Virus record (IMG/VR): IMGVR_UViG_3300024346_004842
Span: 1 to 45,028 of that record
Length of the DNA stretch: 45,028 nt
From: a virus
Direction: 5' to 3' (one strand)
A program made the position numbers and the translations under genes. This document shows, in pieces, positions 5,421 through 44,739 of the stretch (positions are counted from its first letter, which is position 1; each line of letters begins with the position of its first letter). The notes under the pieces are model-generated. The model was not told the origin of the DNA and ran no database searches. It was given only the letters and a program-made list of their open reading frames with translations.

Positions 5421-5804
5421 ATGATTTTACCTATTACACTCACAGAAAACGCAAAAAACAAAATTAACGAGCTTTGTGCTGCTAATACAGGGCATTTCGG
5501 AGTGCATTTAAGCCTTAAAGGCGGAGGATGTGCCGGTTTTGAATATGATTGGGGACTAATAGTAAAAGAAGACGTCAATCCAAATGATGAAATCATTAAT
5601 ACAAGTGCAGGAAATTTAGTTATAGATTCTATGGCACACATGTATTTGTTTGATTGCACAATAGATTATGAAACAGATGTATTTCAAACGCAATTTGTAA
5701 TTAATAACCCTAATGCACAGAGTGCATGTGGGTGCGGAATCAGCGTAAACTTCGACATGGACGCTGTCGAAAAAAATAACGAGAAAATAACGGAGCTCAC
5801 ATAA
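5421..5804 (+). CDS. iscA: A-type iron-sulfur carrier (IscA/HesB-like)
   Basis: The 127-aa protein has the A-type carrier fold signature: TLTENAKNKI at the start, GGGCAGFEY with Cys37, and SACGCGISV with Cys103 and Cys105. These three Cys are the cluster/iron ligands of IscA, SufA and ErpA. The length is slightly above the usual 107-120, with an acidic tail. A-type carriers receive Fe-S clusters from IscU-like scaffolds and pass them to target proteins. It is late-transcribed and ends one base before the giant fibre ATG, so the two are probably co-translated. That places it apart from iscS/iscU at 31.7-33.4 kb. It could have been recruited for assembly of an iron-containing virion part. Confidence 0.85.
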   Translation: MILPITLTENAKNKINELCAANTGHFGVHLSLKGGGCAGFEYDWGLIVKEDVNPNDEIINTSAGNLVIDSMAHMYLFDCTIDYETDVFQTQFVINNPNAQSACGCGISVNFDMDAVEKNNEKITELT

Positions 5805-8800: not shown

Positions 8801-11800
8801 ATCTAAATAACGGTGGCTTTGGAGACTTTACAGAAGTTGAACTAACACTAACTGGCAATGTAACATTTACTAGAGGTGACACAGTTACACAAGCAGGCTC
8901 CGGAGTAGTTGGTAAAGTAAAGAACGACAGTACAAATAATTCAGTTATTATTGTAGGACCAAACGGAATATTTGACACCAGTGGTGAATTATCTGTTGGT
9001 GGTGTAAGTAAAGGTGCAGATAGTGTACCGGCTTCTGTAGCAACAGCAGTAGCATTTACATACGGACCAAAGTGTGCAAGAGACTTAGGTCTTATTGTTG
9101 ATGCGTTGGCATTTGACTTAGAAAAAGGTCTTATTGATCAGTCACTTGAAATACAAGGAAAATATTATGCAGGTGCTGTAGAAGTAGGACAAGAAGTTAT
9201 AACATCAGCATCTATTTTAGAAATAGGTAACATTGCACAAGCATTACTTGGTGCGTCAGCTACACCAGTTGGAACTCCAAGTATTCCTAGTTCAAGACAA
9301 GCAGCATCAGCATGGGATATTACTGTAACAACATCACAACTTGCTGAAGCAGGAACAAGTACTATTGTATCAGGATTATTAAACATTATAGTATTTGCGT
9401 TTAATAGCGAATATAACCCACCTAAGCATAACAAAGATATGGATGTGTTCTTAATGAATGACGCAACTATCTTACGTAACATGACAGTACAAGGTCATGG
9501 TGGATTTATGTGTGTACTTGATCCAGATGGACAGATACTTACTAAGTCACCATACATACAAACAGGTTCAAGTTTTTCACAGTCAATAAACAAACAAGCA
9601 TTTAGAGGTGGTATGTTTGTTGATGGATTTATCAGTAACATGCCGTTAGAAATTGTTGACAATATTACAAGTGCAGGTGCAAACGCACCGTTTGAAATAT
9701 TTGTAAGAAGTAGAAGAGATTCTAAGCAGGTTAATGGTAACGGAGTAGGACTTGGATTATTAGCAAGACGTCCACAACTTCCAGCACCATTTTATGTAAA
9801 CGGTGTGAGATACCAAGTTAATGCTATTAGAAATTACGACCCGATTAACGGTACAGCAGAATTAATACTTGATAAGAATTCAAATCCAGACGATACAGAA
9901 CAACAAGAAGGTCAAGGTTGGATTGGCGGAGAAAACTATCCAATCGTACTTCAAACAGCTGGTAACAGATCTATGCTTGGTAATGACTTTACACAAGTTA
10001 ACGATTTAGGTTATGGACTATTGTGTACTAACAATGGTATATCAGAAATGGTTAGTATGTTTACATACTACTGTCATGCAGCTTACTATGCAAACAATGG
10101 TTCTGAAATTAGATCACTTAACGGATCTAACGCTTATGGTAACTTTGGACTAGTTGCTGCTGGCGGTGACCCTAACGAAGTTGCACAAACGGGTTCATTA
10201 GCATTTAATACTTCACAAACAGCTAAAGTATATGTTAACCCTAGTGCAAACGCAAACGCTAATGCATTACAAACATTTATATATGCATACGATACAGATT
10301 TTGCTCCTTTACCGGAAGGCGAAATTGATATTACATATAATGTAAAAAGAGAGATTGCTAGTATTTCAGCAGCAAATCCAGTTTTACTAAATGTTGCAAG
10401 TCATGGATTTGTTGAAGGACAACGAGTATTAGTATCTAGCAGTAATATTCCTACTACTGGCGGTGGCGCTAATCCAGGAATGGACGGAATACGATATGTT
10501 GGACCTAATCCTTCAACAGGAAGTATAACACTTTATACTGATGCGGCACTTACTACAACACTAAACGGTTCATCTTATAACACTGGTAACTTAGGTAACA
10601 ATGCTGTTATACAAGATGCAGGCGGCACGGCATCATCGCAGAGTAGATTTGAGATTGTATCAGTTACTGATGCACAGTCAGCAGATGGTATTCCGGGTGT
10701 TAACGAAGTAAAACTTACACTAAGTGGAACTATTACTAATGTTCCTTATAATTCTAGAGTAACTATTACAGCAGGTACTGGTCAAACAGCATCAGCTGCA
10801 TTAGGTAGATCAACTAGGCCAATTCAAGACGGAGTTGCTACTACTATACTTTATGTAACATTACCTGAAAATAGAAATCAGTTCGCATTAGGTGATACAA
10901 TTTATACAGATGGTACAACAACAAGTAGAACAATTACTGCTATTGAATCTAATTTAGATAAAGCAGGACGTAAAACTATTGTTGGTGTAACAAAAACAAA
11001 TCCAGTCGTACTTGAAACTATTGGACATAATTTTGTAGACGAAGATCCAATTACTATTGTTGACGGTTCAGGCATAACAGAATTAAACGGAACATATTAT
11101 GCTAAAGTTAGTACAACTACAGGTGGAACTAGTAACGATAAACGATACGTAGAACTGTATAGTGATTCAGCATTAACTACATCAGTAAACGGAACAGGTT
11201 GGGGCGGATCATACACTGCAAGATCAGGTAAGGTATTCTTAACTGAATTAGGTGGAAATCCATTAATAGGTGAAAACGGTACTGTTTGGAAACTATCATT
11301 CTCAAACCAAACTAATGATGAGTCAGTAAGTACTGGCGGGTTATCATCGCCGATAGATGCAGGTTCTTCAATTGGTGTTAGAGCAAGAGCTAAATTTATT
11401 TTAGACAATGTGCAGACGGTTCCAATTAGACCATCAACAGCAGTTGTGTTTGAAGAACAGCCTGAAAATACATATCGTTCTATTAACTTTGACGTTACGC
11501 CAATTACTACATTTGACGGAGCAGGTGCTGCAACATTGCCAGATGGACAAAACATACTTACATTTGATAGTAACTATGATTATATTAGGCAAAGAGTTGA
11601 ATACTCTAATTATAAAGCACAATTTAAACTAGTACTTGCTGGTGTAACAGCACAACCTATAGCAGATGGATCTGTTGTTAGACAAGGATCAGCATCTGGT
11701 ATAATAACTAATTCATATGGTGCAGGTGTTAATACTATATGGGTTAAAGAGTGGAACGGAACTGACTATAGTGTTGGTGGCGGAAATATCGAAGTTGATG

Positions 11801-14800
11801 CTGCAGGCAATGGTACATTTACTAGCATTGGCGGATTAGCAGGAAGCGGTGCTGTTAAATTAAGTTATCTTACAACTAACACAGTAAAAGAATCGTTTGG
11901 TGGTAATCCAGGTGATAGATATATTGCTATTCCAGGCTTAGGTACAGAATCTACAGTAAGACTCCAAAATGCAGATATGATATTTGCATGGAAAGATAGA
12001 ATACACAAAGTACTTGCTTATCATGACGGTGCAGGCACAGCAATTGGTTCTGTCGGTACTAGAGAAGCAGGAGAACCTAATTCACATGCAACAGGCTTTG
12101 CTTATTTAGAAATTGATCGCACTCCAGTATCAAACAAATATTACGATCCAGATACAGCAGCTCCTGCTACAGGTATTGCTGACACATTAAATGTTGGCAA
12201 CGAAGCTGATAATGTTAATCTTGCAATTGGTGTTCCGTCAGGCGAAGGTGCAGAAATTACTGTTAATATTTCACTATGTAGAGCAACAGGACACGACTTT
12301 AGTAATATTGGTACAGGTGGATTTAATACATCTAACTATCCAAATATTATCTTTGGTCAACCGGCATCAGATAAAACAGCAATTGTAACTAGTGACGCAA
12401 CAGCAACTAAAGCTCAAGTTTGGGAAAGAAACAAAGGGCGTGTGTTCTTTGCATCAACCGACGAAGATGGATTCTTCAGAGTAGGTAAATTCTTTACAGT
12501 TGACCAAGGTACAGGTACTATATCGTTTACAGCACAAATTAATATCTCAGGACTAGACGGACTTGGATTTAAAGACGGTGAAATTATTAGTAAGTTCACA
12601 AGTAGCTTTACACAGTCAACAGCAGAACTTAAAAATGTTCCTACAGAAGTTGCTGTAGTAGATTACATTAATAGACGTTTAGGGTTTGATGAATTTAACG
12701 TAGCAGATCCTGCACCACTTACAACAGTAATGAGTGCAACTAATCCGCAACTGACACCAGTAACAGTAGGTGGCGAAACTACACATACACTGAACATGAC
12801 AAACGGTAGAATCACTTTACTAAAACGTCCTGTTGCAGATACTGATGCAGCAACTAAAGAATATATTGATAACAGAATATTTGCAAATGACGAATTTGAA
12901 GATCTTCGTAACGTAAGTTTTTATCAAACAGATTATAATAATGCAAACGGTAACAGTGATTTAATTGTACTAACAGGTAAAAAGAAAATATATGTCAAAT
13001 ATGTTGCAGGAACTATGTTCTCAACAGATGATGTTATTTTTGGACAAGATACAAATAGTGCAGGACGCATTGTTGACATTAGTGATTCATTCCAATTTGA
13101 TAATGGTGAAAATAGCACAGATACAGCATCTGGACTAGAAGTTCAAGTTATAACTTATACCGTATTACCACTAACTATGGTTAACCTAAGTGCAACAGGA
13201 ACTGTTGCAGTAAGAGGACAACTATTAAGACAGCCATCAACTGGTGCACAAGGTTATGTACTACATCCACAAACAGTAGTTGGATCAGGAAAGACATCAG
13301 CTCAGCAGGTGATACTAAGAGAAGTAACAGGAACATTTAACAATACTGCAATAGAACTTGTTAATAACCCGGGTAGTAGTGAAACTGTTGTTGCAACAGC
13401 GGCAACAATAACTAGCGCAGCAACTATTCAAGATGGCGCAAGTGGTGATCCAATAGACTTCCAAGCTGAAACTATATCAAATGGTAGCGTATCAAGAAAT
13501 ACTACACAAGGTAGAGATGGACTTGCTGTATACCCAATGACTGAAGTTGCTAACGCAAGTGAAAGTTTAGTTGGTAATCCAGGTGATGCAACACGTAGTG
13601 ATATTAACATATCTGTAACTAGAGCAAATGCTGCTACAAGTGTTAACTTACAATACCAAGCAGAAAGTTTACTTAATGCAGACGTTAATACTAATGCTGA
13701 CATAGAACAACAAAAACTGTTAATGACTAAAGCACCTGTATTACAAGATAGTGATGCATTTGAAGACTTTAGTACTAACGGAAGAAGAACAAGTCAAGCA
13801 AACAAAGGTATTGCTGCATTTAGTGCAGATGTATTTGCAGAAGACCAAGTATTCATAATGTCAGGATCTGTAACAGCAAACGTAGGCGATATTATAACAC
13901 AAGGTAGTAACACAGGTTATATTGATAAAATTATTAACAGTACTACGCTCAAAGTTAGAACTAGCGATACATTTGTTACTGGAAGCGGAACTTGTTCTAT
14001 AACTCCAATAACAGTATTTAACTTGCCAGTAGGTGCTAACGCTGTACAACAAACTTCAAGCATAAAAGGCACACCAGTTGATTCAACAAGAACTATTACT
14101 ACAATAGAAAAAACTGGATTTGTTAATGTAAAAGATAGAGGTATAACATTTGATAAGATTCAAGACATACCTGAAAACACTGTAATTGGTAGAGGTGATA
14201 TTGGTGACCCTGCTTACAATGCAGATGGTGTACCGTATGCTGTTAGCTTCGATCAAATCATTGACTTAGGTGGTGCTATACAAGATAAAGATTTTGCAAA
14301 TAGTACAGTTACAGAAGTTGCAGGTTGGGTTATTCAAACTGAGGGACTTGTAAGTGTTGCAACAGGTGCAACAGTTAGTTCAGGTGGTGTTGATGCTGTC
14401 GTACAAGGCGCTGTTACAAGTGAAAACAAAGTAGTTGTTATTAATGCTACTAGTACTTTCCCTGGCACAGGAACACTTGCAGGTGTTACAGCTGACAGTC
14501 ATGCAAGTGCCGCAACTATTGTAAGTGCAACTCAGTTTTCAACAGCAGGCGAAGCACTAATTAAACTAGCAGATGGTGTTTATGGCACTACACAAATTAC
14601 AAAGGCTGGAGCAGGTAATCAATTAGTACGCACACTTGATTCAAATGATCAAAACGATCTAACATTTGTATCAGCAAATACTGAAGGATTCATTAATGTT
14701 AAAGGATTATTAATTGATAGTCGTAGAACATTAGATACACGTTCAGCAGGTGGTGATACATTCTTAGATGTTTACACACCAAACGAACGATTAGCAATGA

Positions 14801-25369: not shown

Positions 25370-25941
25370 TGCAGATACTTGATAATATATTTCCTACAAG
25401 GCTAGTAGATGAAATTGAAAGAGCAATGGCTCATGTTGATACTCCGTGGCAATATTCTGATCATACCTACGGTAGAGGAAAACAACTTAGAAAAGGCGAA
25501 GTTGAAGAACCTCAACTAGTACATGCCGCATTTTATGAAGGTGACGGAACATATCTTTGGCCGTTGCTAAATGTTCCTTTGTACTTTATTGAAAAGGAAC
25601 TTAGCCGAAAAATTATTAGTATACAGCGATGTAAAGTAAATACATTAATGTATACTCCACTATACGAAGATGGGTTGAATCATCCTGTACATGCAGATAG
25701 ACACGAGCCAGGTTGGCATTCTGTTATATATTATGTTACAGACGGTGATAATCCTACAGTGTTTACAGATGTAAAATATCCTAATTTAGAACACAAAGAA
25801 TCATCGTATAATATTGTTAACAAAGTAGAACCACGTAAAGGTCGAGTTGTTATATTTCCAAGTGAACTATATCATGCAAGTACACCGACACAACTAAAGA
25901 AACGTGTGGCTGCTAACTACGTTGTAAAATTTGAGGATTAA
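25369..25941 (+). CDS. 2-oxoglutarate/Fe(II) dioxygenase
   Basis: 190-aa double-stranded beta-helix oxygenase. Iron ligands are His108 and Asp110 ([12 protein letters not shown]) and His169 (ELYHAST); Arg179 after the distal His would bind 2-oxoglutarate. [15 protein letters not shown]-type strand order fits the prolyl 4-hydroxylase-like phage group common in T4-like marine phages. Substrate unknown: proteins, nucleobases or metabolites are all possible. It lies between the clamp loader and ferredoxin in a chain of TAATG junctions. Confidence 0.8.
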
Positions 25942-26291
25942 TGACTTATCTAGTTACAGAAGAATGTATTAATTGTAAACACATGACATGCGTCGAAGTA
26001 TGTCCTGTTGATTGTTTTTACGAAGGTGAAAACATGTTAGTAATTGACCCCAATGAATGTATTGATTGCGGTGTATGTGTTCCTGAATGTCCAGTAGATG
26101 CTATTATTGGCGATAATGAACCAGGATGGGATCCTAACAGAATAAAAGTACTAGAAATACATAATGAGAAATATGCTCAAAGGTGGCCCAACATTACTGA
26201 AGCAAGAACGCCGCCTGAAGATGCAGAAGAATGGGCAGGAGTAGAAAATAAGATGGATTTATTTAGTGAGGCACCTGGTGATGGAGACTAA
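25941..26291 (+). CDS. fdxA: Seven-iron ferredoxin (FdxA type)
   Basis: 116 aa. The first 60 residues match Fdx[21 protein letters not shown] with Cys9, Cys17, Cys21 and the extra Cys25 typical of the [3Fe-4S] site, then [17 protein letters not shown] with the CxxCxxCxxxCP set for [4Fe-4S]. The C-terminal 55 residues are the acidic extension seen in this type. It is a low-potential electron carrier that could serve Fe-S assembly or redox enzymes such as ThyX partners. FdxA is common in alphaproteobacteria. It sits in the same transcript as the 2OG oxygenase and ThyX. Confidence 0.9.
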
Positions 26292-31703: not shown

Positions 31704-32921
31704 ATGAAAAGAATATATTTAGATTACGCCTCAACTACTCCGTGTGATCCTAGTGTTGCAAACTTAATGGGAAAATTTCTTACCTTTGACGGTGAGTTTG
31801 GAAACCCTGCAAGTAGAAGTCACAGTTTTGGTTGGGAAGCTGATCAAGCAATTGACACAGCACGTCAACAAGTTGCAGACCTTATAGGTGCTGACCCAAG
31901 AGAAATTACTTTTACAAGTGGTGCTACCGAAGCAGATAACCTTGCTATCAAAGGCACAGCACAATTTTACGAAACAAATGGTAAACATATTGTTACAAGT
32001 AAAATAGAACACAAAGCAGTACTTGACCCTTGTAGAGAACTTGAACGTGATGGTTTTGAAATTACATATCTTGAACCTAACGAAGATGGTATAATCACAG
32101 CAGACATGATTGCTGAAGCAATTAGAGAAGATACAATACTGGTTAGCATTATGTATATCAACAATGAGCTTGGTACACTTAACGACATAGAAGGTATTGG
32201 TAAGTTATGCTTTGATAAGAAAATTGTATTTCATGTAGATGCTGCACAAGCTACAGGTAAAGTTAAAATCAATCTAGAAGAACTTCCTGTAAATTTAATG
32301 AGCTTGTCTGCACATAAAACTTATGGTCCTAAAGGTATAGGAGCATTATACATTCGACGTAAGCCACGTTCAAGAATAAGAGCGCAAATGCACGGTGGTG
32401 GACACGAAAGAGGCAATAGAAGCGGTACATTACCTACACATCAAATTGTAGGAATGGGCGAAGCATATAGAATTGCTAAAGAAAGATTTGAACAAGACAA
32501 AGCTCATGTAGATATGTTACATGATCGTTTGTTAGAAAGAGTCAACGAAGTTGATGAAGTATATTTAAACGGAAGTCTTAATCATAAAGTTAAAAACATT
32601 CTTAATGTTAGTTTTAACTTTATTGAAGGCGAAAGTTTGATTATGGCTTTAGAAAATGTTGCTGTTAGTAGTGGCAGTGCTTGTACAAGTGCAACACTAG
32701 AACCAAGTTATGTATTACGTGCATTAGGTAGAGCAGATGAACTAGCACACAGTAGTATACGATTTAGTTTTGGAAGACAAACTACAATTGAAGATATTGA
32801 TCAAACAGCAGACACATTATTAGATGTAGTTGAAAAACTACGACAACTATCACCACTATGGGACATGTACCAAGACGGCGTAGACATGGAAGCGTTTAAT
32901 TGGGACGAGTACATGCATTAA
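31704..32921 (+). CDS. iscS: Cysteine desulfurase IscS
   Basis: 405 aa, full length for group I IscS (E. coli 404). Landmarks: [12 protein letters not shown] start; [52 protein letters not shown] Lys205 in [38 protein letters not shown]; catalytic Cys327 in [28 protein letters not shown]. It takes sulfur from cysteine as a persulfide and gives it to IscU or thiolation enzymes. The C-terminus keeps the acidic IscU-docking tail. It is the first gene behind a consensus sigma70 promoter, with iscU nine bases downstream. Base composition matches the neighbours. Confidence 0.96.
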
Positions 32922-32930
32922 GGAATTATT

Positions 32931-33356
32931 ATGGCATATTCAGAAGAAGTAACAAAAAGATTTAAAGGTGTATTATCAAATCCAGAAGGGTTTAATGTAG
33001 GCAAGTTTGATCCAAAAGATCCTAAAGTAGCAACAGGTATGTCTGGTGCGCCAGCATGTGGTGACGTAATGCGTCTACAACTTAAACTAGATGAAGATGA
33101 CCGCATTGAAGATGTAGTTTTCAAAACATACGGTTGCGGTAGTGCTATAGCAAGTTCAACAATGTTTGTTGAAATGCTTAAAGGTAAAACTGTAGAGGAA
33201 GCAAGACAAATTAAAGATAAAGATATTGCAGAAGCATTAGACTTACCGCCAATCAAAATACACTGTTCTGTACTAGCAGAAGATTCAATCAAAAAAGCTA
33301 TTAACGACTGGGATAGCAAAAGAGAAAAAAGACAACACAACGGAGGACCCAAATAA
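32931..33356 (+). CDS. iscU: Iron-sulfur cluster scaffold IscU
   Basis: 141 aa. All IscU active residues are present: Cys43 and Asp45 in GAPACGDVMRLQL, Cys69 in TYGCGSAIASST, and His111-Cys112 in KIHCSVLAED. LPPIK at 105-109 corresponds to the LPPVK motif bound by HscA. It builds [2Fe-2S] clusters from sulfur delivered by IscS. The N-terminus replaces the usual VxDHYExPRNVG with a shorter VTKRFKGVLSNPEGFNVGKF. It has AAGGAATT as ribosome site and TAATG coupling to the next small gene. HscA and HscB are not in the window. Confidence 0.95.
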   Translation: MAYSEEVTKRFKGVLSNPEGFNVGKFDPKDPKVATGMSGAPACGDVMRLQLKLDEDDRIEDVVFKTYGCGSAIASSTMFVEMLKGKTVEEARQIKDKDIAEALDLPPIKIHCSVLAEDSIKKAINDWDSKREKRQHNGGPK

Positions 33357-35124: not shown

Positions 35125-35952
35125 ATGGACTATTATAACATACTAGGTGTTCCAAAAGGCGCTTCTGCCAAAGAACTTAAACAAGCATACAAAAAGAAAA
35201 GTATGCAACATCATCCCGACAGGGGTGGTGACGAAGAAGAGTTCAAAAAAATAAACGAAGCATACGCAACACTTAAAGATCCGCAAAAGAGAGCAGGGTA
35301 TGATAATCCTAGTCCTTTTGGCGGAGGTAGATCACAGGGGTTTGGCGGCGGTGGACATGCCGGATTTGAAAATATTAATGATGTTTTCAACAATATGTTT
35401 AATGGAGGATTTCAGCCTAGAGGAAATATGGATGTAACCTTAGGCATTAAGTTAACACTAGAAGAATCTTTTAAAGGTAAAAGTTTAATTGCTAATTATC
35501 AATTAAACACAGGCAAGCAAGAAACAGTTACTATTGAGGTTCCTAAAGGTGCAAAGGACGGAGATACAATTAGATATCAAGGTCTTGGCAATGAGTTTCC
35601 TGGAAGAGGCAGAGGGAATTTAAACTGTAGAGTACAAATACAACCGCATAGACTTTATAGACGCGACGGTGACAACTTGTATACTCTACACAAAGTAGAT
35701 GCACTAGGCATGATTACCGGATGTAAAACTATAGTACAAACAATAGACGGTCGTAAGTTAGAACTAAAGATACCTAAAGGCACACAGAATCAAACGACAT
35801 TTAATATTACAGATAACGGCATGCCTAATATAAACAGTGGCAGACGTGGAAACTTATATATAACTATAGAAGCTGAAATATTCCAAACAGACAGTAACGA
35901 ACTGTTAGAGTTAATTAGACAAATAAATGAGAAAAGAAATGAAATTAGTTAA
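35125..35952 (+). CDS. dnaJ: DnaJ/CbpA-like J-domain co-chaperone
   Basis: 275 aa. J-domain at 1-65 with HPD at 30-32 (MQHHPDRGG), a Gly/Phe-rich linker ([17 protein letters not shown]), then the two beta-sandwich C-terminal substrate domains ([42 protein letters not shown]). The Cys-rich zinc domain is absent, making it type B (CbpA-like). It recruits host DnaK. It is not HscB-like, so it is not a dedicated Fe-S chaperone by sequence. Weak start context: no ribosome site. It overlaps the deformylase gene by 26 bases. Confidence 0.9.
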
Positions 35953-36442
35953 AAGTCCGGACCCTTGGTTAGAAAAAGTAGTAAAAGAATTTGACTTCGA
36001 TGCATTAGATGCTAAATCTATTGCACAAGAAATGATTAATCTTATGACTGCCGAAGGTGGTATTGGACTTAGTGCAAACCAGGTTGCATTAGATGCACAA
36101 ATTTTAGTAATGAAACCTCATCTATTAGAAAACAAAGAACCGTTTGCTATGATTAATCCAGTTATTGAAAGTGTAACTATTAATATGGAAAACATGCCCG
36201 AAGGGTGTTTAAGTTTTCCAGGTTTAATATTATCGGTAAAACGTCCACGTGGAATTATAGTTAAATACCTTGACATAGATTCTAAAGAGTGTATAATAGA
36301 ACTATACGATTTAGATGCTAGATGTTTTTTACACGAATATGATCACTTACAAGGGATCGAGTTTATAGACAGAGTATCTAAGTTGAAATTAGATTTTGCA
36401 AAGAAAAAAATGAGAAAACAGAGGAAGAAACAATATGGTTGA
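35927..36442 (+). CDS. def: Peptide deformylase
   Basis: 171 aa with all three motifs: GIGLSANQ (45-52), EGCLS with metal Cys94, and HEYDH with His136, Glu137 and His140. It removes N-formyl groups from new proteins. Phage deformylases are known from marine phages and are thought to keep nascent chain processing going late in infection. The start may be ATG 35927 or 35939; the first gives more overlap with dnaJ. It overlaps clpA by 8 bases. The C-terminus is a basic tail. Confidence 0.93.
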
Positions 36443-38678
36443 ACCAAGTAAAGAGCTACAGTTAGTTTTTGATAAAGCAATTAGTGATGCTAAGTCGCTT
36501 CAGCACGAGTATGTTACACTAGAGCATATCATGTTTGCTATGCTTTGTTCAGAAAATTTCTATAATGCTGTTCAAGGATACGGTGCTGATCCGGATTTTG
36601 TAAAGGCTAATTTAGAACATTATCTTAAAGAAAAACTTAACGAAATTAAAACCGAAGAAACAAAATATAAGCCAAAGAAAACTTCGTCAGTAGAACGTGT
36701 TCTTAATAGAGCATTTACACAAGTACTGTTTAGTGGACGTCCAGAGATTACACTTCCCGATGTTATGCTAAGTCTACTTAGTGAAAAGAAATCTATGGCT
36801 ACATACTATCTTGAAGAAGTAGGAATTACTAAAGAAAAATTTGCTGAATATATTAATTCAGAATTTGAAGCAGAGTACGAAGATGAAGAAATGAGTGGAG
36901 CAGCACAAAAGGCTCTACGTGCATTTACTACAAATTTAAACGACGATGTTAGAAAAAATAAAGTTGATCCTGTTATAGGTAGAGCTGAAGAACTAGAATC
37001 ACTTGCGTTGGCACTTGGTCGTAGAAGTAAGAATAATGTACTAATGGTTGGTGATCCTGGTGTAGGTAAAACAGCAATTGCCGAAGGACTTGCATATAAC
37101 ATTGTTAATGATAATGTACCAGACTTCTTAAAAGAATTTAGTGTTTATAATCTTGACATTGGTTCTATGCTTGCTGGTTCAAAATACAGAGGTGACTTTG
37201 AAGAGCGATTTAAACTTGTACTAACAGGGTTGAAAAGCAAAGGTAAAACAATTATGTTTATCGACGAAGCTCATATGATGAGCGGTGCAGGTGCAGCAGG
37301 TAGCAATAGTGCTAATGATTTAGCAAACATGCTAAAGCCTGCTCTTGCTAAAGGTAACATTAAAGTTGTTGCATCAACTACTTGGGAAGAATATCGTAAG
37401 TACTTTGAAAAGGATCGTGCATTAATGCGTAGATTCCAACGTGTAACAATTGACGAACCTAGTAATGAAGTTACTAAAGATATTTTACGTGGTATTAAGA
37501 AATACTATGAGGACTATCATGCAACTACTATTACTGATGATGCAATCGAAGCGGCTGTAAAACTTAGTGTAAAATATCAATCAGATAAAAAATTACCTGA
37601 TAAAGCAATTGACTTACTTGATGTTGCTTGTTCAAGATTTAAATTATCTAATACACCCGAAGGCGAACGCACAGTTAGTCAAGAAGAAGTACAGTTTGAG
37701 CTTAGTAAGATGATTGGTCTTCCAGTTGATCAAGTTGCTGAGAGAGAATCAGGTAACTTAGGAAATCTAGATAAAAATATTAAGAAAGTTGTATACGGAC
37801 AAGACACTGCTGTTGATGAAGTTGTTGACAAGATACTTGTTAGCCAAGCAGGACTAAAACCGGAAGATAAGCCAGTAGGGTCATTTGTGTTTATGGGTCC
37901 AACTGGTACTGGTAAAACTGAAACAGCAAAAGCACTATCAAATGAATTAGGTGTAAAACTTGTTAGATTTGATATGAGTGAATATCAAGAAAAACATGCT
38001 GTAGCAAAATTAATTGGTTCACCTCCAGGATACGTAGGCCATGAAGAAAATGCAGGTCTACTAATTACAAAATTGCAAGAAAATCCTAACTGTGTATTAC
38101 TATTAGATGAAATAGAAAAAGCACATCCAGATGTATCGCAAATATTGTTACAGATTATGGATAACGGTAAAGTTACAGGGTCAAATGGTAAGGAAGCAGA
38201 TGCACGAAATAGTATCATTATTCTTACAACTAACTTAGGTGCTAAACAAGCAGAAAAGAATTCTATTGGATTCGGTGATGAACAAGAAGAAGTGTACGAA
38301 GATACCGAGTTGAAGAAGTTTTTTGCTCCAGAGTTTAGAAATAGACTTGACGGTGTAATTACGTTTAACAAACTTGGTAAGCCTGTGATGATGAAAATTG
38401 TTGGCAAGTTCCTTGTTGAACTTAAGAACATGGTAAAAGACAAGGGCGTTGTTATTAACATTACAGACGAAGCATTAGACTACTTAGTAGATAAAGGATT
38501 TGATCCTAAAATGGGGGCTAGACCATTACAACGTGTTATTGATAAAGAAATTAAAAGACCTTTATCACGAGAATTGTTATTTGGTAAACTTAAAAGCGGT
38601 GGAACTGTAACAATTGACATTGTAAAAGGTGAGGTCTCTCTAAACGTATTAGAGGAATCGACTGTTGAGAACCTATGA
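36435..38678 (+). CDS. clpA: ClpA-like AAA+ unfoldase
   Basis: 747 aa, close to E. coli ClpA (758). Clp N-domain (about 1-140, YVTLEHIMFAMLCSE), first AAA+ with Walker A GDPGVGKT at 206-213 and no ClpB-type middle coiled coil, second AAA+ with Walker A GPTGTGKT at 488-495, then RPLQRVIDKEIKRPLS in the D2 small domain. The ClpP-docking loop is kept as IGF at 611-613 (SIGFGDEQEE). It should unfold proteins for ClpP, but no ClpP gene is in the window, so host ClpP may be used. Coupled at both ends to deformylase and an unknown gene. Confidence 0.94.
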   Translation: MVEPSKELQLVFDKAISDAKSLQHEYVTLEHIMFAMLCSENFYNAVQGYGADPDFVKANLEHYLKEKLNEIKTEETKYKPKKTSSVERVLNRAFTQVLFSGRPEITLPDVMLSLLSEKKSMATYYLEEVGITKEKFAEYINSEFEAEYEDEEMSGAAQKALRAFTTNLNDDVRKNKVDPVIGRAEELESLALALGRRSKNNVLMVGDPGVGKTAIAEGLAYNIVNDNVPDFLKEFSVYNLDIGSMLAGSKYRGDFEERFKLVLTGLKSKGKTIMFIDEAHMMSGAGAAGSNSANDLANMLKPALAKGNIKVVASTTWEEYRKYFEKDRALMRRFQRVTIDEPSNEVTKDILRGIKKYYEDYHATTITDDAIEAAVKLSVKYQSDKKLPDKAIDLLDVACSRFKLSNTPEGERTVSQEEVQFELSKMIGLPVDQVAERESGNLGNLDKNIKKVVYGQDTAVDEVVDKILVSQAGLKPEDKPVGSFVFMGPTGTGKTETAKALSNELGVKLVRFDMSEYQEKHAVAKLIGSPPGYVGHEENAGLLITKLQENPNCVLLLDEIEKAHPDVSQILLQIMDNGKVTGSNGKEADARNSIIILTTNLGAKQAEKNSIGFGDEQEEVYEDTELKKFFAPEFRNRLDGVITFNKLGKPVMMKIVGKFLVELKNMVKDKGVVINITDEALDYLVDKGFDPKMGARPLQRVIDKEIKRPLSRELLFGKLKSGGTVTIDIVKGEVSLNVLEESTVENL

Positions 38679-39325: not shown

Positions 39326-39333
39326 GATAAATA
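39326..39333 (+). promoter_or_regulatory. Late promoter motif GATAAATA, leaderless layout
   Basis: GATAAATACTTAC is followed directly by ATG 39339. By T4 geometry transcription would begin about at the A of the ATG. No ribosome site exists between motif and start. Confidence 0.6.
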
Positions 39334-39338
39334 CTTAC

Positions 39339-39680
39339 ATGGCACAGAGCGAAACAATATTATCTAATCAATCACACCCTGGTGACAGTACAATAGAATC
39401 TCACACAGGTGAAAAGTTTAAAGGCGACGGTTATTATGGCCGTGCAGACGGCTTACATACAGTACAGTATAACATATCAGGATTTACAGGTATAGTGGCT
39501 ATACAAGGCACACTTGCAGTTAATCCGGTTGACGCAGACTGGTTTACAGTCTACACTGAAACACATTCACAAACAACTAAAGTAATTGCAACTAACTTTA
39601 CTGGCAATTATGTATGGGTTAGAGCTTACATTAGTGAATGGACTGACGGAACAGTTACTAGTATGTTGTTAAATCATTAA
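39339..39680 (+). CDS. Small beta-rich virion protein
   Basis: 113 aa, strands throughout (HTVQYNISGFTGIVAIQGTL, DWFTVYTETHSQTTKVIATN, VWVRAYISEWTDGTVTSML). The pattern resembles small decoration or neck-type beta-sandwich proteins of marine T4-like phages. It is the first gene of the late block at the right end and seems to be translated from a leaderless mRNA. Confidence 0.65.
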   Translation: MAQSETILSNQSHPGDSTIESHTGEKFKGDGYYGRADGLHTVQYNISGFTGIVAIQGTLAVNPVDADWFTVYTETHSQTTKVIATNFTGNYVWVRAYISEWTDGTVTSMLLNH

Positions 39681-39689
39681 GGAAGCATC

Positions 39690-40286
39690 ATGGAACATTT
39701 TATAAGAGTAGTAATGGAAAAACAAGATACACTAAGCGAAGGCTTAAATGAAAGTGTATTTCCAGGAAGTTATGTATTTGAATCAGATCAGGGTGCTACG
39801 ATATTTGAAATGCCGTTATCCGATGAACTTAACTCTGAACAAGCCGACGAATTTGCACAAAAATTAAGTGAATATGTTTTTAACCAAGGTTATAACGACT
39901 TTGATATAGAAATATCCACAAACGACGATTCAACTATAGACGAAGAAACATATGACGACGATGACGAATTTTATGAAGAATACGGCGTTATGTGGTACAA
40001 CGAAGATGATGACCCGATAGACGAAGCAGAATACCAAGGACGTAAAGTTAAATTAGGCAAGCCTATGCAAGGCGATGTTAAGAAGTTTAAAGTTTATGTT
40101 AAAGATCCTAAGACAGGTAACGTAAAGAAAGTTAACTTTGGACACGGCGGAAGTAGTGTCAAAGGTAAAGCAATGAAGATTAAAAAGAATAATCCAGCAC
40201 GTAGAAGAAGTTTCCGTGCTAGACATAATTGTGATAATCCAGGGCCGCGTACTAAAGCACGTTACTGGTCATGTAGGAAATGGTAG
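39690..40286 (+). CDS. Late protein with acidic middle and Cys/Arg C-terminal cassette
   Basis: 198 aa. N-terminus MEHFIRVVMEKQ is CTS-like but weakly so. Residues 70-112 are very acidic (DEETYDDDDEFYEEYG). From residue 115 comes a basic cassette: YQGRKVKLGKPMQGDVKKFK, VNFGHGG, NPARRRSFRARHNCDNPGPR, RYWSCRKW. This C-terminal cassette recurs in marine phage proteins and likely folds on its own around the Cys and aromatic residues. A role in the prohead or in DNA contact is inferred from charge and location. AAGGAAG precedes the ATG. Confidence 0.7.
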   Translation: MEHFIRVVMEKQDTLSEGLNESVFPGSYVFESDQGATIFEMPLSDELNSEQADEFAQKLSEYVFNQGYNDFDIEISTNDDSTIDEETYDDDDEFYEEYGVMWYNEDDDPIDEAEYQGRKVKLGKPMQGDVKKFKVYVKDPKTGNVKKVNFGHGGSSVKGKAMKIKKNNPARRRSFRARHNCDNPGPRTKARYWSCRKW

Positions 40287-40287
40287 T

Positions 40288-40641
40288 ATGAAGATATTTG
40301 AATTTACAGATAATGATGAGCCAAAATTAAATTTTGATAGTATAGAAGACTTATGTATTTTTATGCGTAATGACCCTATGTTTTATCGTAAACAATTTTT
40401 CCCATGTATGGCTAATATATCAGACAAAATTGACAGCGACGGAAAATGTGACCCTAATAAAGATATAGGCCCATGTGTTGATAATGCATGTAATGCTTAT
40501 TGCAATCAATATGATTTGCCACATGATCCTAAAACATTATTCCCAATAGAAGATAGACGATCTATAGTATCTAAAATATATTCTGAAGAAATGCCTAATA
40601 TTAAACAGGGAATGTATAAGGCAGAATCATCATGCTCTTAA
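40288..40641 (+). CDS. Cys-containing late protein, capsid-targeting-like start
   Basis: 117 aa from ATG 40288 (the frame is open upstream into the previous gene). It starts MKIFEFTDNDEP, then DLCIFMRNDPMFYRKQFFPC, CVDNACNAYCNQYDLP and DRRSIVSKIYSEEMPNIKQG. Five or more Cys in CxxxCNxYC spacing suggest a metal or disulfide site. The short MKIFEF start resembles the T4 internal-protein tag MKTYQEF. It overlaps the nucleotidyltransferase gene by 10 bases. Function unknown. Confidence 0.65.
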   Translation: MKIFEFTDNDEPKLNFDSIEDLCIFMRNDPMFYRKQFFPCMANISDKIDSDGKCDPNKDIGPCVDNACNAYCNQYDLPHDPKTLFPIEDRRSIVSKIYSEEMPNIKQGMYKAESSCS

Positions 40642-41231
40642 GAGAACTATTCGAAGCTCCAAAGAAAATAGCTGTAGCAGCATTTGGAAGAATGAATCCT
40701 CCAACTATTGGACACGAAAAACTTGTTAATAAAATTAAAAGTCAAAGTGGTGATCATTATATTTTCTTAAGCCAAACACAAAAACCAAAAGACAATCCAT
40801 TACCGTTTGATGTAAAATTAGACTTTGCCAAAAAGTTTTTTCCCGGTATTAATGTAGGGCATCCACAAGTACGTACTCCAATACAGATGTTACAACTACT
40901 AGAAAAACTAGGATATACAGATGTTGTTTATGTAGCAGGTTCAGATCGTGTAGAAAGTTTTGATAAACTGTTTAACGATTATAATGGTAAAGAATATAAC
41001 TTTGATAGTATTACAGTAATAAATGCGGGCGAACGTGATCCTGATGCAGAAGGTGCAGAAGGTATGAGTGCAAGTAAAATGAGAGCGGCAGCTGCTCAAG
41101 GAAACTTAGAAGCATTTACACAAGGAGTTCCAAGATCTGCTTTGGCTAAAGATATGTATGATGCTGTACGTGATGGTATGGGATTAGTAGACAAACAGCC
41201 TGTAGATGAATCTAAACGTGGTACAAAGTAA
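40632..41231 (+). CDS. Nucleotidyltransferase (NMNAT/cytidylyltransferase-like)
   Basis: 199 aa. After MLLRELFEAP, a Rossmann-type nucleotidyltransferase follows: VAAFGRMNPPTIGHEKLV with the TxGH motif (Thr25, His28), VVYVAGSDRVESFD, and GMSASKMRAAAAQG matching the ISSTxxR motif. Enzymes of this fold attach AMP or CMP to phosphorylated substrates (NMN, phosphopantetheine, glycerol-3-P). Substrate is not evident. Its LRELFE start is shared with the gene at 41456 and looks like a capsid-targeting tag with a gp21-type L-x-E cut site, so the enzyme may be packaged. It joins the next gene directly. Confidence 0.82.
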   Translation: MLLRELFEAPKKIAVAAFGRMNPPTIGHEKLVNKIKSQSGDHYIFLSQTQKPKDNPLPFDVKLDFAKKFFPGINVGHPQVRTPIQMLQLLEKLGYTDVVYVAGSDRVESFDKLFNDYNGKEYNFDSITVINAGERDPDAEGAEGMSASKMRAAAAQGNLEAFTQGVPRSALAKDMYDAVRDGMGLVDKQPVDESKRGTK

Positions 41232-41459
41232 ATGGATGATCTAGAGTATATAAAGAAGTTAGCCGGTGTTAACGAATTTAAAGGTTACACAGAATATACT
41301 CTTGAAAACATAAGCGATGCTGCAAATTCAAATGCAAAAAAAATGCGTGATAAAAATATTCGTCCTGGTGACAAAGAGTGGTTTGAATTATGGTTCAGTC
41401 AACCAAAAATGATGAATCAAAATATGCCAGGTGGATTTAGAGGACGCAAAAAGAAATGA
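41232..41459 (+). CDS. Small late phage protein
   Basis: 75 aa: MDDLEYIKKLAGV start, a helical middle (NISDAANSNAKKMRDKNIRP) and a conserved-looking GDKEWFELWFSQPKMM with a basic RGRKKK end. It starts on the base after the previous stop and shares the ATGA junction with the next gene. Possibly a scaffold or internal protein; unknown. Confidence 0.6.
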   Translation: MDDLEYIKKLAGVNEFKGYTEYTLENISDAANSNAKKMRDKNIRPGDKEWFELWFSQPKMMNQNMPGGFRGRKKK

Positions 41460-42898
41460 GAATTAGAGAACTTTTTGAAGATGGAAGAATTGTAAAAGGC
41501 GTTAACACTACTGTTGATGTAGGGCCTAACGAAATTACAAAACAAGCAGCTAAGTTTGGATTTAAAGTAGACAAAGACGGACGTCCACAAAACCATCCTA
41601 GCAAAGTAAAAGGTTCTAAAACTAATGTTGCATTTAACTTAGGTATAACTGAAAGTAAAAATTTTGCAGAAGCACTAGGTGAAATTGCTAGTTCTACCCA
41701 AATATACGTAGACATGGACGGAGTACTTGCAGACTTTTTTGGCGAATGGGCTAAACTAATGCAAGTTGATCATTTTACAGATATTGACAAGCAACATGAT
41801 ATTAACGATGCATTACAGAAAATACGAGACACTGACGACTTTTGGTTACGTTTACCTATATTACCAGAAGCAAAGAATTTACTTAATTTAATTAAAGAAG
41901 TTAAAGGCGAATATAGTATATGTACTAGTCCTTTAGCAGATGATCCTAATTCAGAAAAACATAAGCGTACTTGGGTAGAAAAGAATCTAGCATTTTTTCC
42001 GCCTAAAGAAGTATTTGTTACACATAATAAACCACAATTTGCTACAGCAAAGGACGGCACCCCTAATATATTAATTGATGACTATGGCGTTAATATTAAT
42101 GCTTGGGAAGCAGCTGGCGGCTATGGGTTTAAATACAAAGACCATAAGTTTGAACGTACAGCTAAAGATATTAAACAGCATATGCAAGAGCCAGTAGAAG
42201 AAGGCAAAATGTTAGCTAATCCTAAAAATACATTCCTTACAAAAGCAGACACAGCATACGACTTTATTAAGGTAGGCACAAACTTAGCAAACTTAAAAGA
42301 TGTTCCAGCAGGCGGAAATATGGACGAGCCAGACATAATGATTGCTCCATATGCAGGCGCTAAAGAAATGAAGTATCTTATGAAGCAACTTAATCGTATT
42401 GGTTACAAAACACAAGATGCACAAGGTTATCAAGATGCACACTATGACGATGAACCAACTGGTGGAGAAGCACCTCCACAAATGAAGGCACAAGGTCCAT
42501 TAGGTAAAATTAAAATATCTAAGTTACGTGGTGTACAAAAAGAAAGAACATACGAAAAATTAGCAAAGCAACTAGAACGTGTATTAGAAGGCGACTATGC
42601 TCCTCTACAGATTGACCGTAAAGGTAGAGTAATTAACGGACATCACAGACTAGATGCATTACGTTTAGTAGGTGAAGAGTATGCTCGTGTACATATGATC
42701 GATGATGTAGTAGAAAACATAAAAGAAAACTTTGCTGATGGTAAGAAAAAAGGCAAAAGCAGACCTGGTAGAGTAAAGAAGTCAGGTGCTAGTTGTAATG
42801 GGTCAGTAACTAGTTTAAGAGCAAAAGCAAAAAAGGCTAGTGGAGAACGTGCTAAAATGTACCACTGGTGTGCTAATATGAAAGGTGGCAAGAAGTAA
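41456..42898 (+). CDS. HAD nucleotidase / ParB-like fusion with Cys-rich tail
   Basis: 480 aa with four parts. Residues 1-9 (MRIRELFED) are CTS-like. About 83-250 is a HAD domain of the 5'(3')-deoxyribonucleotidase type: IYVDMDGVLADF (Asp86, Asp88), FWLRLPILPEAKNL, ICTSPLADDPNSE, NILIDDYGVNINAWEAAGG. About 355-425 is a ParB/sulfiredoxin-like domain (ISKLRGVQKERTYEKLAKQL, INGHHRLDALRLVG). From 433 a basic tail with GASCNGSVTSLRAKAKKASG and MYHWCANMKGG. It could dephosphorylate dNMPs and bind nucleotide or DNA inside the capsid. A rare fusion; each domain is read by motif. Confidence 0.8.
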   Translation: MRIRELFEDGRIVKGVNTTVDVGPNEITKQAAKFGFKVDKDGRPQNHPSKVKGSKTNVAFNLGITESKNFAEALGEIASSTQIYVDMDGVLADFFGEWAKLMQVDHFTDIDKQHDINDALQKIRDTDDFWLRLPILPEAKNLLNLIKEVKGEYSICTSPLADDPNSEKHKRTWVEKNLAFFPPKEVFVTHNKPQFATAKDGTPNILIDDYGVNINAWEAAGGYGFKYKDHKFERTAKDIKQHMQEPVEEGKMLANPKNTFLTKADTAYDFIKVGTNLANLKDVPAGGNMDEPDIMIAPYAGAKEMKYLMKQLNRIGYKTQDAQGYQDAHYDDEPTGGEAPPQMKAQGPLGKIKISKLRGVQKERTYEKLAKQLERVLEGDYAPLQIDRKGRVINGHHRLDALRLVGEEYARVHMIDDVVENIKENFADGKKKGKSRPGRVKKSGASCNGSVTSLRAKAKKASGERAKMYHWCANMKGGKK

Positions 42899-43098
42899 TG
42901 TTTAGCAGGCAATGTAAACTACACTTAGAAGCAAAGAACGAAACAGGACTACAACATATGAAAGGCGCACTTATAACTGCGGTTAAGTTACAGATGCTTG
43001 TACCAGCAATAATTGTACATAGTGTTGCGCCACGTTTTTTTACAAATACAACTACTAATGTTTTAGAAGATATTTTACATAAGCGTAAAGATGCATAA
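42898..43098 (+). CDS. DUF6356-like small membrane protein
   Basis: 66 aa: MFSRQCKLHLEAKNETGLQH, then a hydrophobic stretch (LQMLVPAIIVHSVAPRFF) and TNTTTNVLEDILHKRK. The H-x(n)-ETG-x-H-M/H-A-P-x-F-T pattern resembles DUF6356 of alphaproteobacteria. TAATG-coupled to the HAD/ParB fusion gene. Function unknown. Confidence 0.55.
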   Translation: MFSRQCKLHLEAKNETGLQHMKGALITAVKLQMLVPAIIVHSVAPRFFTNTTTNVLEDILHKRKDA

Positions 43099-43101
43099 AT
43101 A
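43094..43101 (+). promoter_or_regulatory. Late promoter motif CATAAATA
   Basis: GCATAAATACAT overlaps the end of the DUF6356-like gene; AAGGATT and ATG 43131 follow. Confidence 0.6.
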
Positions 43102-43130
43102 CATATAACAACGCTACCAAGGATTAACAA

Positions 43131-43859
43131 ATGAAAATTTATGAAATAACATCAATAAAGAACGAAGAACAACTTGACGAAATGTTACCGGCATTATTAT
43201 TACCCAGTATAATAGCAGGAGCAAGAATTGCTGGTCCTTGGTTAGTAAAGCAAGGTGCAAAGATAGTTGCACAAAGAGGCGCTGCAGCTTCAGTAGCTGG
43301 AACAGCAGCTAAAAAAGGTGCTGAGGTTGTTGCTAAAGGTGCTGGCAAAGTTGCTACTGGTACAGCTAACACACTTCTTAAACGTCCAATAGCAACTACT
43401 GCAATAGGCGGTGGCGCATATGTTGCTAAGAAAGCTGGTGACGGTATTGACGAACTAGTAAGAAAAGGCGGAGAAAATATTGACGCTATAAAAGATCAAG
43501 TATCTGCTGCATTAGGTGGTTCAGGATTTGCTAAAGTTGTAGCATTTGCATCTAAGTATGCAATTCCAGGGTTAGCTGCTGTTGCTATACTATACGGTGG
43601 TAAAAAGATTTGGGATTATGCTACTAAAGCCGGAGAAGAAGATCCAAAACTTGCAACAGAAAATGCTACAATGGGTGCTACAGCATCAGGTAACGTAGCA
43701 TCAGTTGCTAATCCAATAGCTGCAAACGCTAAGATAAAACGTGATAAAAATGGTGTTCCAGTAGCACCGCAAAAGAAAAATAAAGACGGAACCGCTATTA
43801 ATGCACTTGACATGAAAAATAATATCATGGGCGGGAAAGCAATTAAGAGGACACAATAA
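43131..43859 (+). CDS. Ala/Gly/Lys-rich late protein, possible internal head protein
   Basis: 242 aa. It starts MKIYEITSIKNEE, close to the T4 capsid-targeting tag MKTYQEF. The body is low-complexity Ala/Gly/Val/Lys with amphipathic and hydrophobic stretches (LLLPSIIAGARIAGPWLVKQ, AAASVAGTAAKKGAEVVAKG, YAIPGLAAVAILYGGKKIWD) and a polar tail. This composition fits a protein stored in the head and ejected with DNA, perhaps membrane-active. It has its own late motif and good AAGGA site. Confidence 0.65.
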   Translation: MKIYEITSIKNEEQLDEMLPALLLPSIIAGARIAGPWLVKQGAKIVAQRGAAASVAGTAAKKGAEVVAKGAGKVATGTANTLLKRPIATTAIGGGAYVAKKAGDGIDELVRKGGENIDAIKDQVSAALGGSGFAKVVAFASKYAIPGLAAVAILYGGKKIWDYATKAGEEDPKLATENATMGATASGNVASVANPIAANAKIKRDKNGVPVAPQKKNKDGTAINALDMKNNIMGGKAIKRTQ

Positions 43860-43860
43860 C

Positions 43861-44739
43861 ATGGCTAAGACAAATCCAAACCAAAAACCTAAAGGAGCAT
43901 TTGCTCAAGGGTTCGCAAAAGGTTATGACACGATGGGTAATATTTTGGACCCAGATTCATTACGTAAAGGATTAACTGCTTTAGGTAAAAAAATAACTAC
44001 TCCAGATGATGAAACTACTAAGATGAAAGTTACTGCTGCAGATAAAAGAATGAATACTGTTGCATACCAAAGATTAATGAAGGGCGATCCACGTTATGTA
44101 AATGCCATTAAAGAAGGCCTTGCTGATAAAGCAGACATGGCAGAACGTGACCATGAAGTACAAATGGCTCGTGCAGACTTATACAAGATTGCAAAGTATG
44201 CTATCGAACTACACGACATGATGAAAAAAGTTACAGAAGCAGAAGGTATTGAAGGTTGGCAACAGGCTAAGATTACTAAAGCAGCTGACTATATGAGTAG
44301 TGTATTCCATTCATTAGATTATGACTTACGCTTTAACGAAGTAACTGAAGCTAAGGACACACATTGTTCAGACAAGTGCTGTGGTGCCGACGTTAAAAGA
44401 GAAGATTGTGTATGCCCTGCAGACTGTGAACATTGTAACTGTAACAATTCTAAAGTTGCAGAAGGCAAAAGTCCGCATAAAAAAGGTACTAAGAAATACA
44501 AAGCACACATGGCTGCTATGCATGCCGAGAGTATAAAAGATCCTTACAAAAAAGGACTAATGGACAAACTACACGAAGCAAAACAAAGTGTTTGTAAAGA
44601 GTGCGGTAATCCAAGTTACACTACACTTGACGAAGAAAAGCAAAAAGGCGTTGACGGCAAAGTATGCTGGAAAGGCTACAAGCGTATGGGCACCAAGAAA
44701 AAAGGTGGCAAGACTGTAGATAACTGTGTGAAGATGTAA
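43861..44739 (+). CDS. Late protein with Cys clusters and KGVDGK...CWKGYK cassette
   Basis: 292 aa. Lys-rich N-terminus (NPNQKPKGAFAQGFAKGYDT), helical middle, a Cys-dense stretch near 172-200 (HCSDKCCGADVKREDCVCPA, CEHCNCNN), a Lys/His linker (SPHKKGTKKYKAHMAAMHAE), CKECGNPSYTT, and the end cassette from 262 (KGVDGKVCWKGYKRMGTKKK, DNCVKM). The Cys clusters could bind zinc or a metal cluster. The end cassette is one of several short Cys/Lys cassettes recurring in marine phage late proteins. One base separates it from the gene before. Function unknown. Confidence 0.7.
   Translation: MAKTNPNQKPKGAFAQGFAKGYDTMGNILDPDSLRKGLTALGKKITTPDDETTKMKVTAADKRMNTVAYQRLMKGDPRYVNAIKEGLADKADMAERDHEVQMARADLYKIAKYAIELHDMMKKVTEAEGIEGWQQAKITKAADYMSSVFHSLDYDLRFNEVTEAKDTHCSDKCCGADVKREDCVCPADCEHCNCNNSKVAEGKSPHKKGTKKYKAHMAAMHAESIKDPYKKGLMDKLHEAKQSVCKECGNPSYTTLDEEKQKGVDGKVCWKGYKRMGTKKKGGKTVDNCVKM

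Follow-up and report, generated by a model that had tools for sequence, protein, structure and literature searches.

In a linear stretch of 45,028 bases (the window), an incomplete virus record of IMG/VR (IMGVR_UViG_3300024346_004842) with T4-type features, a plus-strand gene cassette encodes proteins that repeatedly begin with a short N-terminal peptide (the tag), and these tags very probably represent capsid-targeting propeptides of the T4 internal-protein type, directing their proteins to the head where a gp21-type protease would cut the tag off. That the trimmed proteins are then injected and act in the next host is a separate step, which we consider probable. In T4, the head protease gp21 cuts after L/I-X-E, and the internal proteins IPII and IPIII start with MKTYQEFIAE|A (PMC9026906). 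A previous sequence-only reading of the window had named four genes with comparable starts, which were present exactly as described: 40288 (MKIFEFTDN), 40632 (MLLRELFEAP), 41456 (MRIRELFEDG) and 43131 (MKIYEITSIK), with LFE at positions 6-8 of 40632 and 41456 and in neither MKIFEFTD nor MKIYEITS. The bodies it had named, a nucleotidyltransferase (NT), a HAD nucleotidase/ParB-like fusion and an Ala/Gly-rich protein with hydrophobic stretches, were likewise confirmed.

The cassette follows a ClpA/B-like gene (36435) and gene 38665, and in relatives a DNA polymerase gene lies beyond it. Related loci were gathered by scans with the NT and HAD proteins, giving at least 155 loci on marine contigs, whose genes were called with a simple gene caller and then clustered into families; by this procedure the gene order of the cassette was found to be conserved. 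No near-identical or close match to the window was found among INPHARED phages, and the comparison with isolate phages was made at the protein level.

Gene 40632 (40632-41231, plus strand) encodes a 199-amino-acid (aa) NT of the cytidylyltransferase/NMNAT/PPAT superfamily, matching phrog_3041 (1.2e-56) and phrog_395 (3e-41), while the Pfam family PF01467 fell below its cutoff. Foldseek matched the structural model (pLDDT 85) best to PPAT/CoaD (E 4e-6) and, lower, to NadM (2qjo, 6e-5). The protein belongs to the HIGH-type NT superfamily by its (H/T)xGH motif and S/T-rich second motif, here TIGH (residues 25-28) and MSASK (145-149), both essentially invariant in relatives. Its tag MLLRELFE (40632-40655, plus strand), with a predicted cut after E8 (LFE|A), is modelled as a short peptide standing ahead of the folded body, residues 1-10 having a pLDDT of 58 and the folded domain beginning at residue 13. 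In an alignment of 29 NTs, M1 and E8 were invariant (29/29) and residues 2-7 and 9-13 variable. All 47 distinct NT starts in which position 8 is filled carried Glu there, encoded by both GAA and GAG in varied surroundings, and position 6 was occupied by Leu (40) or Ile (7).

An equivalent Glu is found in gene 41456 (41456-42898, plus strand), a 480-aa modular protein delineated by Pfam, PHROG, Foldseek and alignment, whose tag MRIRELFE (41456-41479, plus strand) has a predicted cut after E8 (LFE|D). The tag is followed by a DGRIVKGVNTTVDVG segment, a HAD deoxyribonucleotidase domain (41693-42175), a shared module, a ParB-like domain (42497-42703) and a shared basic C-terminal module (42725-42895) common to other tagged proteins, all on the plus strand. 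The HAD domain matched the 5'-deoxyribonucleotidase family PF06941 with 32.5 bits against a cutoff of 24.8 (9.6e-8) and carries the DxD and DD motifs of 5'(3')-deoxyribonucleotidases (NT5C HAD), with Asp86/Asp88 and Asp208/Asp209 invariant in an alignment of single-frame relatives. It was well predicted and resembled mitochondrial deoxyribonucleotidase (Foldseek, 1z4i, E 1.5e-5), and the linkers of the model were of low confidence. The ParB-like domain was recognised by phrog_620 (1.7e-5) and by structural similarity to ParB-N (5k5d, 6.6e-4), contains the motif NGHHRLDALRL and is absent or degenerate in some relatives. E8 is invariant in the HAD alignment, and in 52 of 52 distinct starts of the HAD/c30 group a Glu directly precedes the body, with Leu (33), Ile (15) or Phe (4) at P3. 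This Glu occupies position 8 in most cases and positions 9-11 in others, as in MKISELLNE|DGRIV, MKLFEFLKE|DGRIV and MRYKDIKLAE|DGRIV; it therefore follows the body boundary rather than a fixed position, as predicted of the P1 residue of a protease site.

Otherwise unrelated tagged proteins were also seen to swap modules (41456-42898, L041:10001-11926 and L153:8120-10204), namely a basic C-terminal SRPGRVKKSGASCNG...WCANM, a NPKNTFLTKSDTAYDF segment, a Cys-rich CSDKCCGADVKREDC and an Ala/Gly-rich hydrophobic stretch. The HAD/ParB protein of the window and the long NT of locus L041 have the segment NPKNTFLTKxDTAYDF and the basic C-terminal SRPGRVKKSGASCNGSV...MYHWCANM in common.

Within the window, a loose tag pattern matched 4 of 57 proteins of at least 50 aa, against 0.2-0.4 expected. 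The sequence-only reading had suggested looking for the same tag across the late genes of relatives, and it was indeed recovered: the consensus start M-[K/R]-[I/L]-x-[E/D]-[L/I] was carried by at least 50% of the members in 12 of 52 cassette families and in 0 of 54 families outside the cassette (Fisher 9e-5), a figure that serves as a guide only, since examples had been inspected before the pattern was fixed, and since the sequences are related. A strict pattern requiring Glu at position 8 gave 0-2 matches per genome, because the length and last residue of the tag vary, and family-level tests were used instead. As a second general site, LAG[IVL]xE was considered and rejected; it occurred mostly in family c1, about once per genome, with 0.2-0.3 expected by chance. 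Further tagged bodies include DUF6267 (4e-28) and several proteins of 250-680 aa, and of these tagged bodies only DUF6267 and the NT were recognised by PHROG and Pfam, families c153, c102, c103 and c108 being without a match.

Tagged proteins were also observed adjoining the head gene cluster of relatives (G007:C1:98357-101172 and G002:C1:130765-131592; L167, L168 and L179), with the starts MNVHEIILE, MKLQEVTS and MKISDITNE, and three of the tagged genes beside the head genes of G007 and G002 had no PHROG match. In the 469-kb Sinorhizobium jumbo phage Phosso (L204:7986-8180), a 64-aa protein starting MRYAEILKLLEDGKVVKGVNTTVDVG consists of a tag and the DGRIVKGVNTTVDVG segment alone, and adjoins virion-like genes.

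The window itself is a fragment that holds no prohead protease or gp23 gene; two long relatives with cassette genes, G007 and G002, encode both the T4-type head maturation protease (phrog_207, 4e-57) and gp23 with a propeptide (phrog_138, 3e-100). In G002, gp23 reads ...RRYLAE|SATAGATSAGNVATLNRV, where a T4-type cut is expected after LAE, so that the propeptide ends YLAE|SATAGATSAGNVATL. A 57-aa tagged cassette protein of the same genome, which belongs to the 43131 family, reads MRLRELIE|TASAGATSAGSVAAVANP, that is, LIE|TASAGATSAGSVAAV. When the gp23 N-terminal arm of G002 was compared with the 47,905 16-residue windows of its own proteome, this protein scored 54 and the next match 27; the proteome of G007, searched likewise, gave a best match of only 33. 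Because the tag abuts the arm copy in such short members, its last Glu sits exactly at the gp23 propeptide cut position. Across the family, with the register fixed and P1 excluded from the scoring, P1 was Glu before 42 of 43 distinct arm copies and P3 usually I, V, L, M or A, and the Glu was kept both in copies that stand immediately behind the tag and in copies behind a long Cys-rich or Ala/Gly-rich insert. Family members (most 57-275 aa, up to 446) carry the arm segment only and not a full-length major capsid protein, and a Pfam search with 43131 gave no PF07068 match.

The window member, 43131 (43131-43859, plus strand), is a 242-aa protein that begins MKIYEITS and has an Ala/Gly-rich hydrophobic body, the gp23-arm copy and a conserved tail (INALDMKNNIMGGK). 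Its candidate cut sites lie later in the protein, at LDE (residues 15-17) and at E177 before the arm copy (E177|NATMGATASGNVASVA; 43659-43709, plus strand; arm score 48). We tentatively propose, with nearly as much reason for belief as for doubt, that an arm copy behind its own head-protease site may be a second packaging device, exposed by cleavage alongside the real gp23 arms; in the manner of a capsid subunit, the cargo or its tail would then dock on the inner face of the shell. Two phage groups appear to have come to this arrangement with different arm sequences, one represented by the 43131 family and the other by ORF97 of phage S-SCSM1 with its cyanophage homolog gp190. ORF97 (record 93121-93306) contains a copy of the gp23 arm of its own phage with a score of 83, the next being 33 of 66,499. 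An in-frame upstream start at S-SCSM1 93082-93120 (L206) gives MDKTDRVIQLIRE|MIAVGAGG, so the annotated start of ORF97 may be internal, with a putative cut site before the arm copy.

The cassette also has the appearance of a late transcription unit. The T4 late promoter TATAAATA has ATAAATA at its core, and 10 of the 11 plus-strand occurrences of this motif in the window (3816, 4449, 5397, 17480, 21024, 22442, 28478, 34493, 39326 and 43094) sit 13-37 nucleotides upstream of a called plus-strand gene start (binomial ~4e-14). Two of these late promoter-like sites, both on the plus strand, belong to the cassette: GATAAATA (39326-39333), 13 nucleotides upstream of 39339, and CATAAATA (43094-43101), 37 nucleotides upstream of 43131. 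In relatives, ATAAATA was found upstream of 46 of 54 genes of family c13 (39339, within 50 nucleotides), 61 of 79 of c0 (43861) and 25 of 65 of c6 (39690), and upstream of none of the ClpA/B, DnaJ, DNA polymerase and c10 genes. Since the motif precedes cassette genes but not the flanking genes, the cassette looks late-expressed. The gp23-arm and promoter tests, as well as the comparison with isolate virions below, are independent of the tag pattern.

NT homologs were found in 529 phage records, mostly of cyanophages. The cytidylyltransferase T4-GC190 was detected in purified virions of S-SM1 (PMC3037559), the NMNAT ORF91 in those of S-SCSM1 (PMC9602691), and ORF154 in those of S-CREM2, with NT homologs also in S-CBWM1 and S-SZBM1 (PMC10665884); the NT has thus been seen in purified cyanophage particles since 2010, and the published reports describe no sorting signal (PMC3037559, PMC9602691, PMC10665884). 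ORF91, which is 43% identical to the window NT, starts MKSFLQFLKE|AAES, and similar starts are found in the NTs of P-SSM2 (MKSFSQFLTE|T), S-RIM2 (MKKFSAFLTE|A) and S-CRM01 (MKLFNQFFKE|A). Serine/threonine kinases were reported in S-CRM01 virions (PMC10665884); the kinase is likely the annotated kinase gene starting MISFDQFLSE|K, which we assumed to be the same protein. Six neighbours of the S-SCSM1 NT, ORF97 among them, are likewise flagged as virion proteins though they lie among replication genes. A T4-derived start pattern occurred 8 times in S-CRM01 (1.8 expected), 6 times in P-SSM2 (1.5), 4 times in HTVC008M (1.4) and only twice in Methylophilales phage Melnitz (1.0).

Head targeting with cleavage after LFE, as first proposed from the window sequence, thereby gains support from the invariant P1 Glu and the L/I at P3 in an otherwise variable start, from the Glu-preceded gp23-arm copy of the 43131 family, from T4-type late promoters on the cassette but not on clpA/B, dnaJ and DNA polymerase, and from the published mass spectrometry of NT homologs in purified virions. 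Predicted cleavage at that site applies to 40632 and 41456, whereas 40288 and 43131 have no simple cut site there. The proposed set of nucleotide-handling enzymes was too narrow a description, because just two of the four genes encode such enzymes and the cassette has many unrelated bodies.

Several observations weigh against packaging by a cleavable tag. The genes 40288 and 43131, as well as an NT subgroup starting MRLREITSPNK, have no Glu at position 8, so some tags may stay uncut there; this would be compatible with targeting, because an Asp at position 10 of the T4 tag blocks processing while targeting is kept (PMC9026906). With two residues fewer than the T4 tag, the octapeptide shows only partial resemblance to it, sharing M-[K/R]...E-[L/I/F]...E with MKTYQEFIAE and MKTFKEF but not the KT[YF]xxF core. 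In the whole virion proteome of S-SCSM1, the T4-tag pattern was not enriched (1/47 virion vs 1/234 other proteins, p 0.3), nor was the L/I-x-E site significantly so (4/47 vs 6/234, p 0.07), indicating that tags mark only few virion proteins; most virion proteins are tail parts that need no tag, which accounts for the absence of separation. Moreover, the authors of the cyanophage mass spectrometry caution that highly expressed enzymes may co-purify with virions (PMC10665884, PMC9602691), and the mass spectrometry is that of cyanophage isolates.

The main rival is that the tagged proteins, although taken into the prohead and cut, serve as core, scaffold or DNA-condensing parts in which the enzyme folds are building blocks rather than effectors. 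In its favour, T4 IPIII takes part in head morphogenesis (PMC9026906), the cassette includes several small, basic, non-enzymatic proteins, the basic C-terminal module common to the NT and HAD proteins looks DNA-binding, and the copying of the gp23 arm hints at shell contact. Yet the essentially invariant TIGH and MSASK motifs of the NT and the invariant Asp residues of the HAD domain would be unexpected in pure building blocks, and the bodies differ from phage to phage, as effectors should. We consider a role in head building alone rather unlikely, and such a role is compatible with, not exclusive of, packaging as cargo.

Ordinary cytoplasmic enzymes, whose shared starts stem from 5' ends in common or from the initiation of translation and whose detection in virions is due to carry-over, would be a quite improbable explanation. 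Recombination between neighbouring gene starts could spread tags, several of the genes overlap the preceding stop codon, and carry-over is named as possible by the mass spectrometry authors themselves; however, the overlap spans the first codons only and non-overlapping genes are tagged too, Glu8 is kept as an amino acid through both of its codons, the P1 Glu is met again ahead of the internal gp23-arm copy, well away from any start codon, and the NT was detected in virions of five cyanophages. We give hardly any weight to the tag being an address elsewhere (portal or baseplate, membrane or replication compartment) with the Glu as part of that address and not of a protease site. It is by sequence similarity alone that the octapeptide is tied to the T4 tag, and some tagged proteins have hydrophobic segments, but the short 43131-family members put the Glu of the tag exactly at the gp23 cut position, P3 and P1 fit L/I-X-E, and the promoters are of the late type.

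Capsid targeting with trimming and delivery would proceed as follows. The late-transcribed cassette would make cargo whose bodies can be exchanged (NT, HAD/ParB, DUF6267, Ala/Gly-rich and others). Each body would be led to the prohead core by its peptide M-[K/R]-[I/L]-x-[E/D]-[L/I]-x-E, and a gp21-type protease would cut after [L/I]-x-E during head maturation. Members of the 43131 family would undergo a second cut, resembling that of gp23, which would expose the copy of the mature gp23 arm. Once trimmed, the protein would remain in the head together with the DNA and probably accompany it into the next host, where, as a guess, the NT might supply the synthesis of NAD or CoA and the HAD domain might act on deoxynucleoside monophosphates at the start of infection. 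For this phage, we infer targeting, cleavage, ejection into the host and the enzyme roles there.

Tagging of this kind is already known from T4, and a review of the work of Black suggested that relatives may use it to carry other proteins (PMC9026906); new here are its proposed use on a marine-phage enzyme cassette, the conserved cut site and the capsid-arm copies. A literature search for capsid-targeting tags in cyanophages or other marine phages listed no description, the matches being reviews on T4 and papers on unrelated subjects. Like T4 IPI, IPII and IPIII, the cassette proteins combine a short MK start, a hydrophobic P3 and the P1 Glu of an L/I-X-E site with unrelated bodies behind similar starts, and their genes need not adjoin head genes. 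Unlike them, the tags are mostly 8 residues long instead of 10-19 and stand on enzymes and large modular proteins in a cassette, some members have no cut site, and one family carries a capsid-arm copy. The KT[YF]xxF-type core is present in relatives of gene 39690 (MTKTFKDYLKEA) and in cyanophage NTs. The virion cytidylyltransferase/NMNAT of cyanophages (T4-GC190; S-SCSM1 ORF91) is homologous to the window NT (~35-47% identity) and has a similar capsid-targeting start, although the window NT is shorter with an 8-residue tag and the groups of phages are no more than distant relatives. Polyvalent proteins of phages and conjugative elements (Iyer 2017, PMC5512222) are likewise multi-domain, with ParB-type domains, and predicted to be packaged and injected, whereas here a removable N-terminal tag is proposed to deliver the protein and the fusion is of a HAD nucleotidase with ParB. 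S-SCSM1 ORF97, found in virions, and its S-RIM2 homolog gp190 ('major head protein') carry near copies of the mature gp23 arm of their own phage; the 43131 family differs in copying the arm of its own group, with a tag or spacer in front and another C-terminal tail.

T4-like phages are among the most abundant marine viruses, and capsid targeting would explain the repeated finding of the NT in purified cyanophage particles. The rule M-[K/R]-...-[L/I]-x-E or MK[ST]Fxx[FY]LxE would predict which 'metabolic' genes encode packaged cargo as opposed to genes expressed in the infected cell, and can be checked against existing proteomics data. Cargo bodies swapped behind a fixed label would amount to a natural counterpart of the T4 platform for protein delivery, and the capsid-arm copies suggest a second route into the head.

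The remaining cassette genes are all on the plus strand. The first, 39339-39680 (113 aa), is untagged and weakly similar to a virion structural protein (phrog_14467). Genes 39690 and 41232 lie within the span of the sequence-only reading and were not listed there as tagged. Gene 39690 (39690-40286, 198 aa) has a phrog_7595 C-terminal domain and starts MEHFIRVVMEKQ in the window, and several of its relatives start MTKTFKDYLKEA or MKKFKEYLSES, very close to the T4 tag. Gene 40288 (40288-40641, 117 aa) is tagged (MKIFEFTDN), with no L/I-X-E site at position 8. Gene 41232 (41232-41459, 75 aa) is an untagged protein with a LAGVNEFKGYTEY motif, conserved in relatives of the cassette. Gene 43861 (43861-44739, 292 aa) has a Cys-rich segment; some of its relatives are tagged (MRIKDINEGP) and four carry a gp23-arm copy.

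Directly ahead of the cassette, DnaJ-like, peptide deformylase-like and ClpA/B-like genes stand in a row (35125-38678), and late promoters are absent from these genes in relatives. Judged by their sequences, proteins resembling an A-type Fe-S carrier (5421-5804), a ferredoxin (25941-26291), a cysteine desulfurase (IscS-like, 31704-32921) and a scaffold (IscU-like, 32931-33356) are an apparent Fe-S assembly set on a phage. Finally, a single open frame of 3,891 aa (5806-17481) resembles a giant tail or fibre protein.

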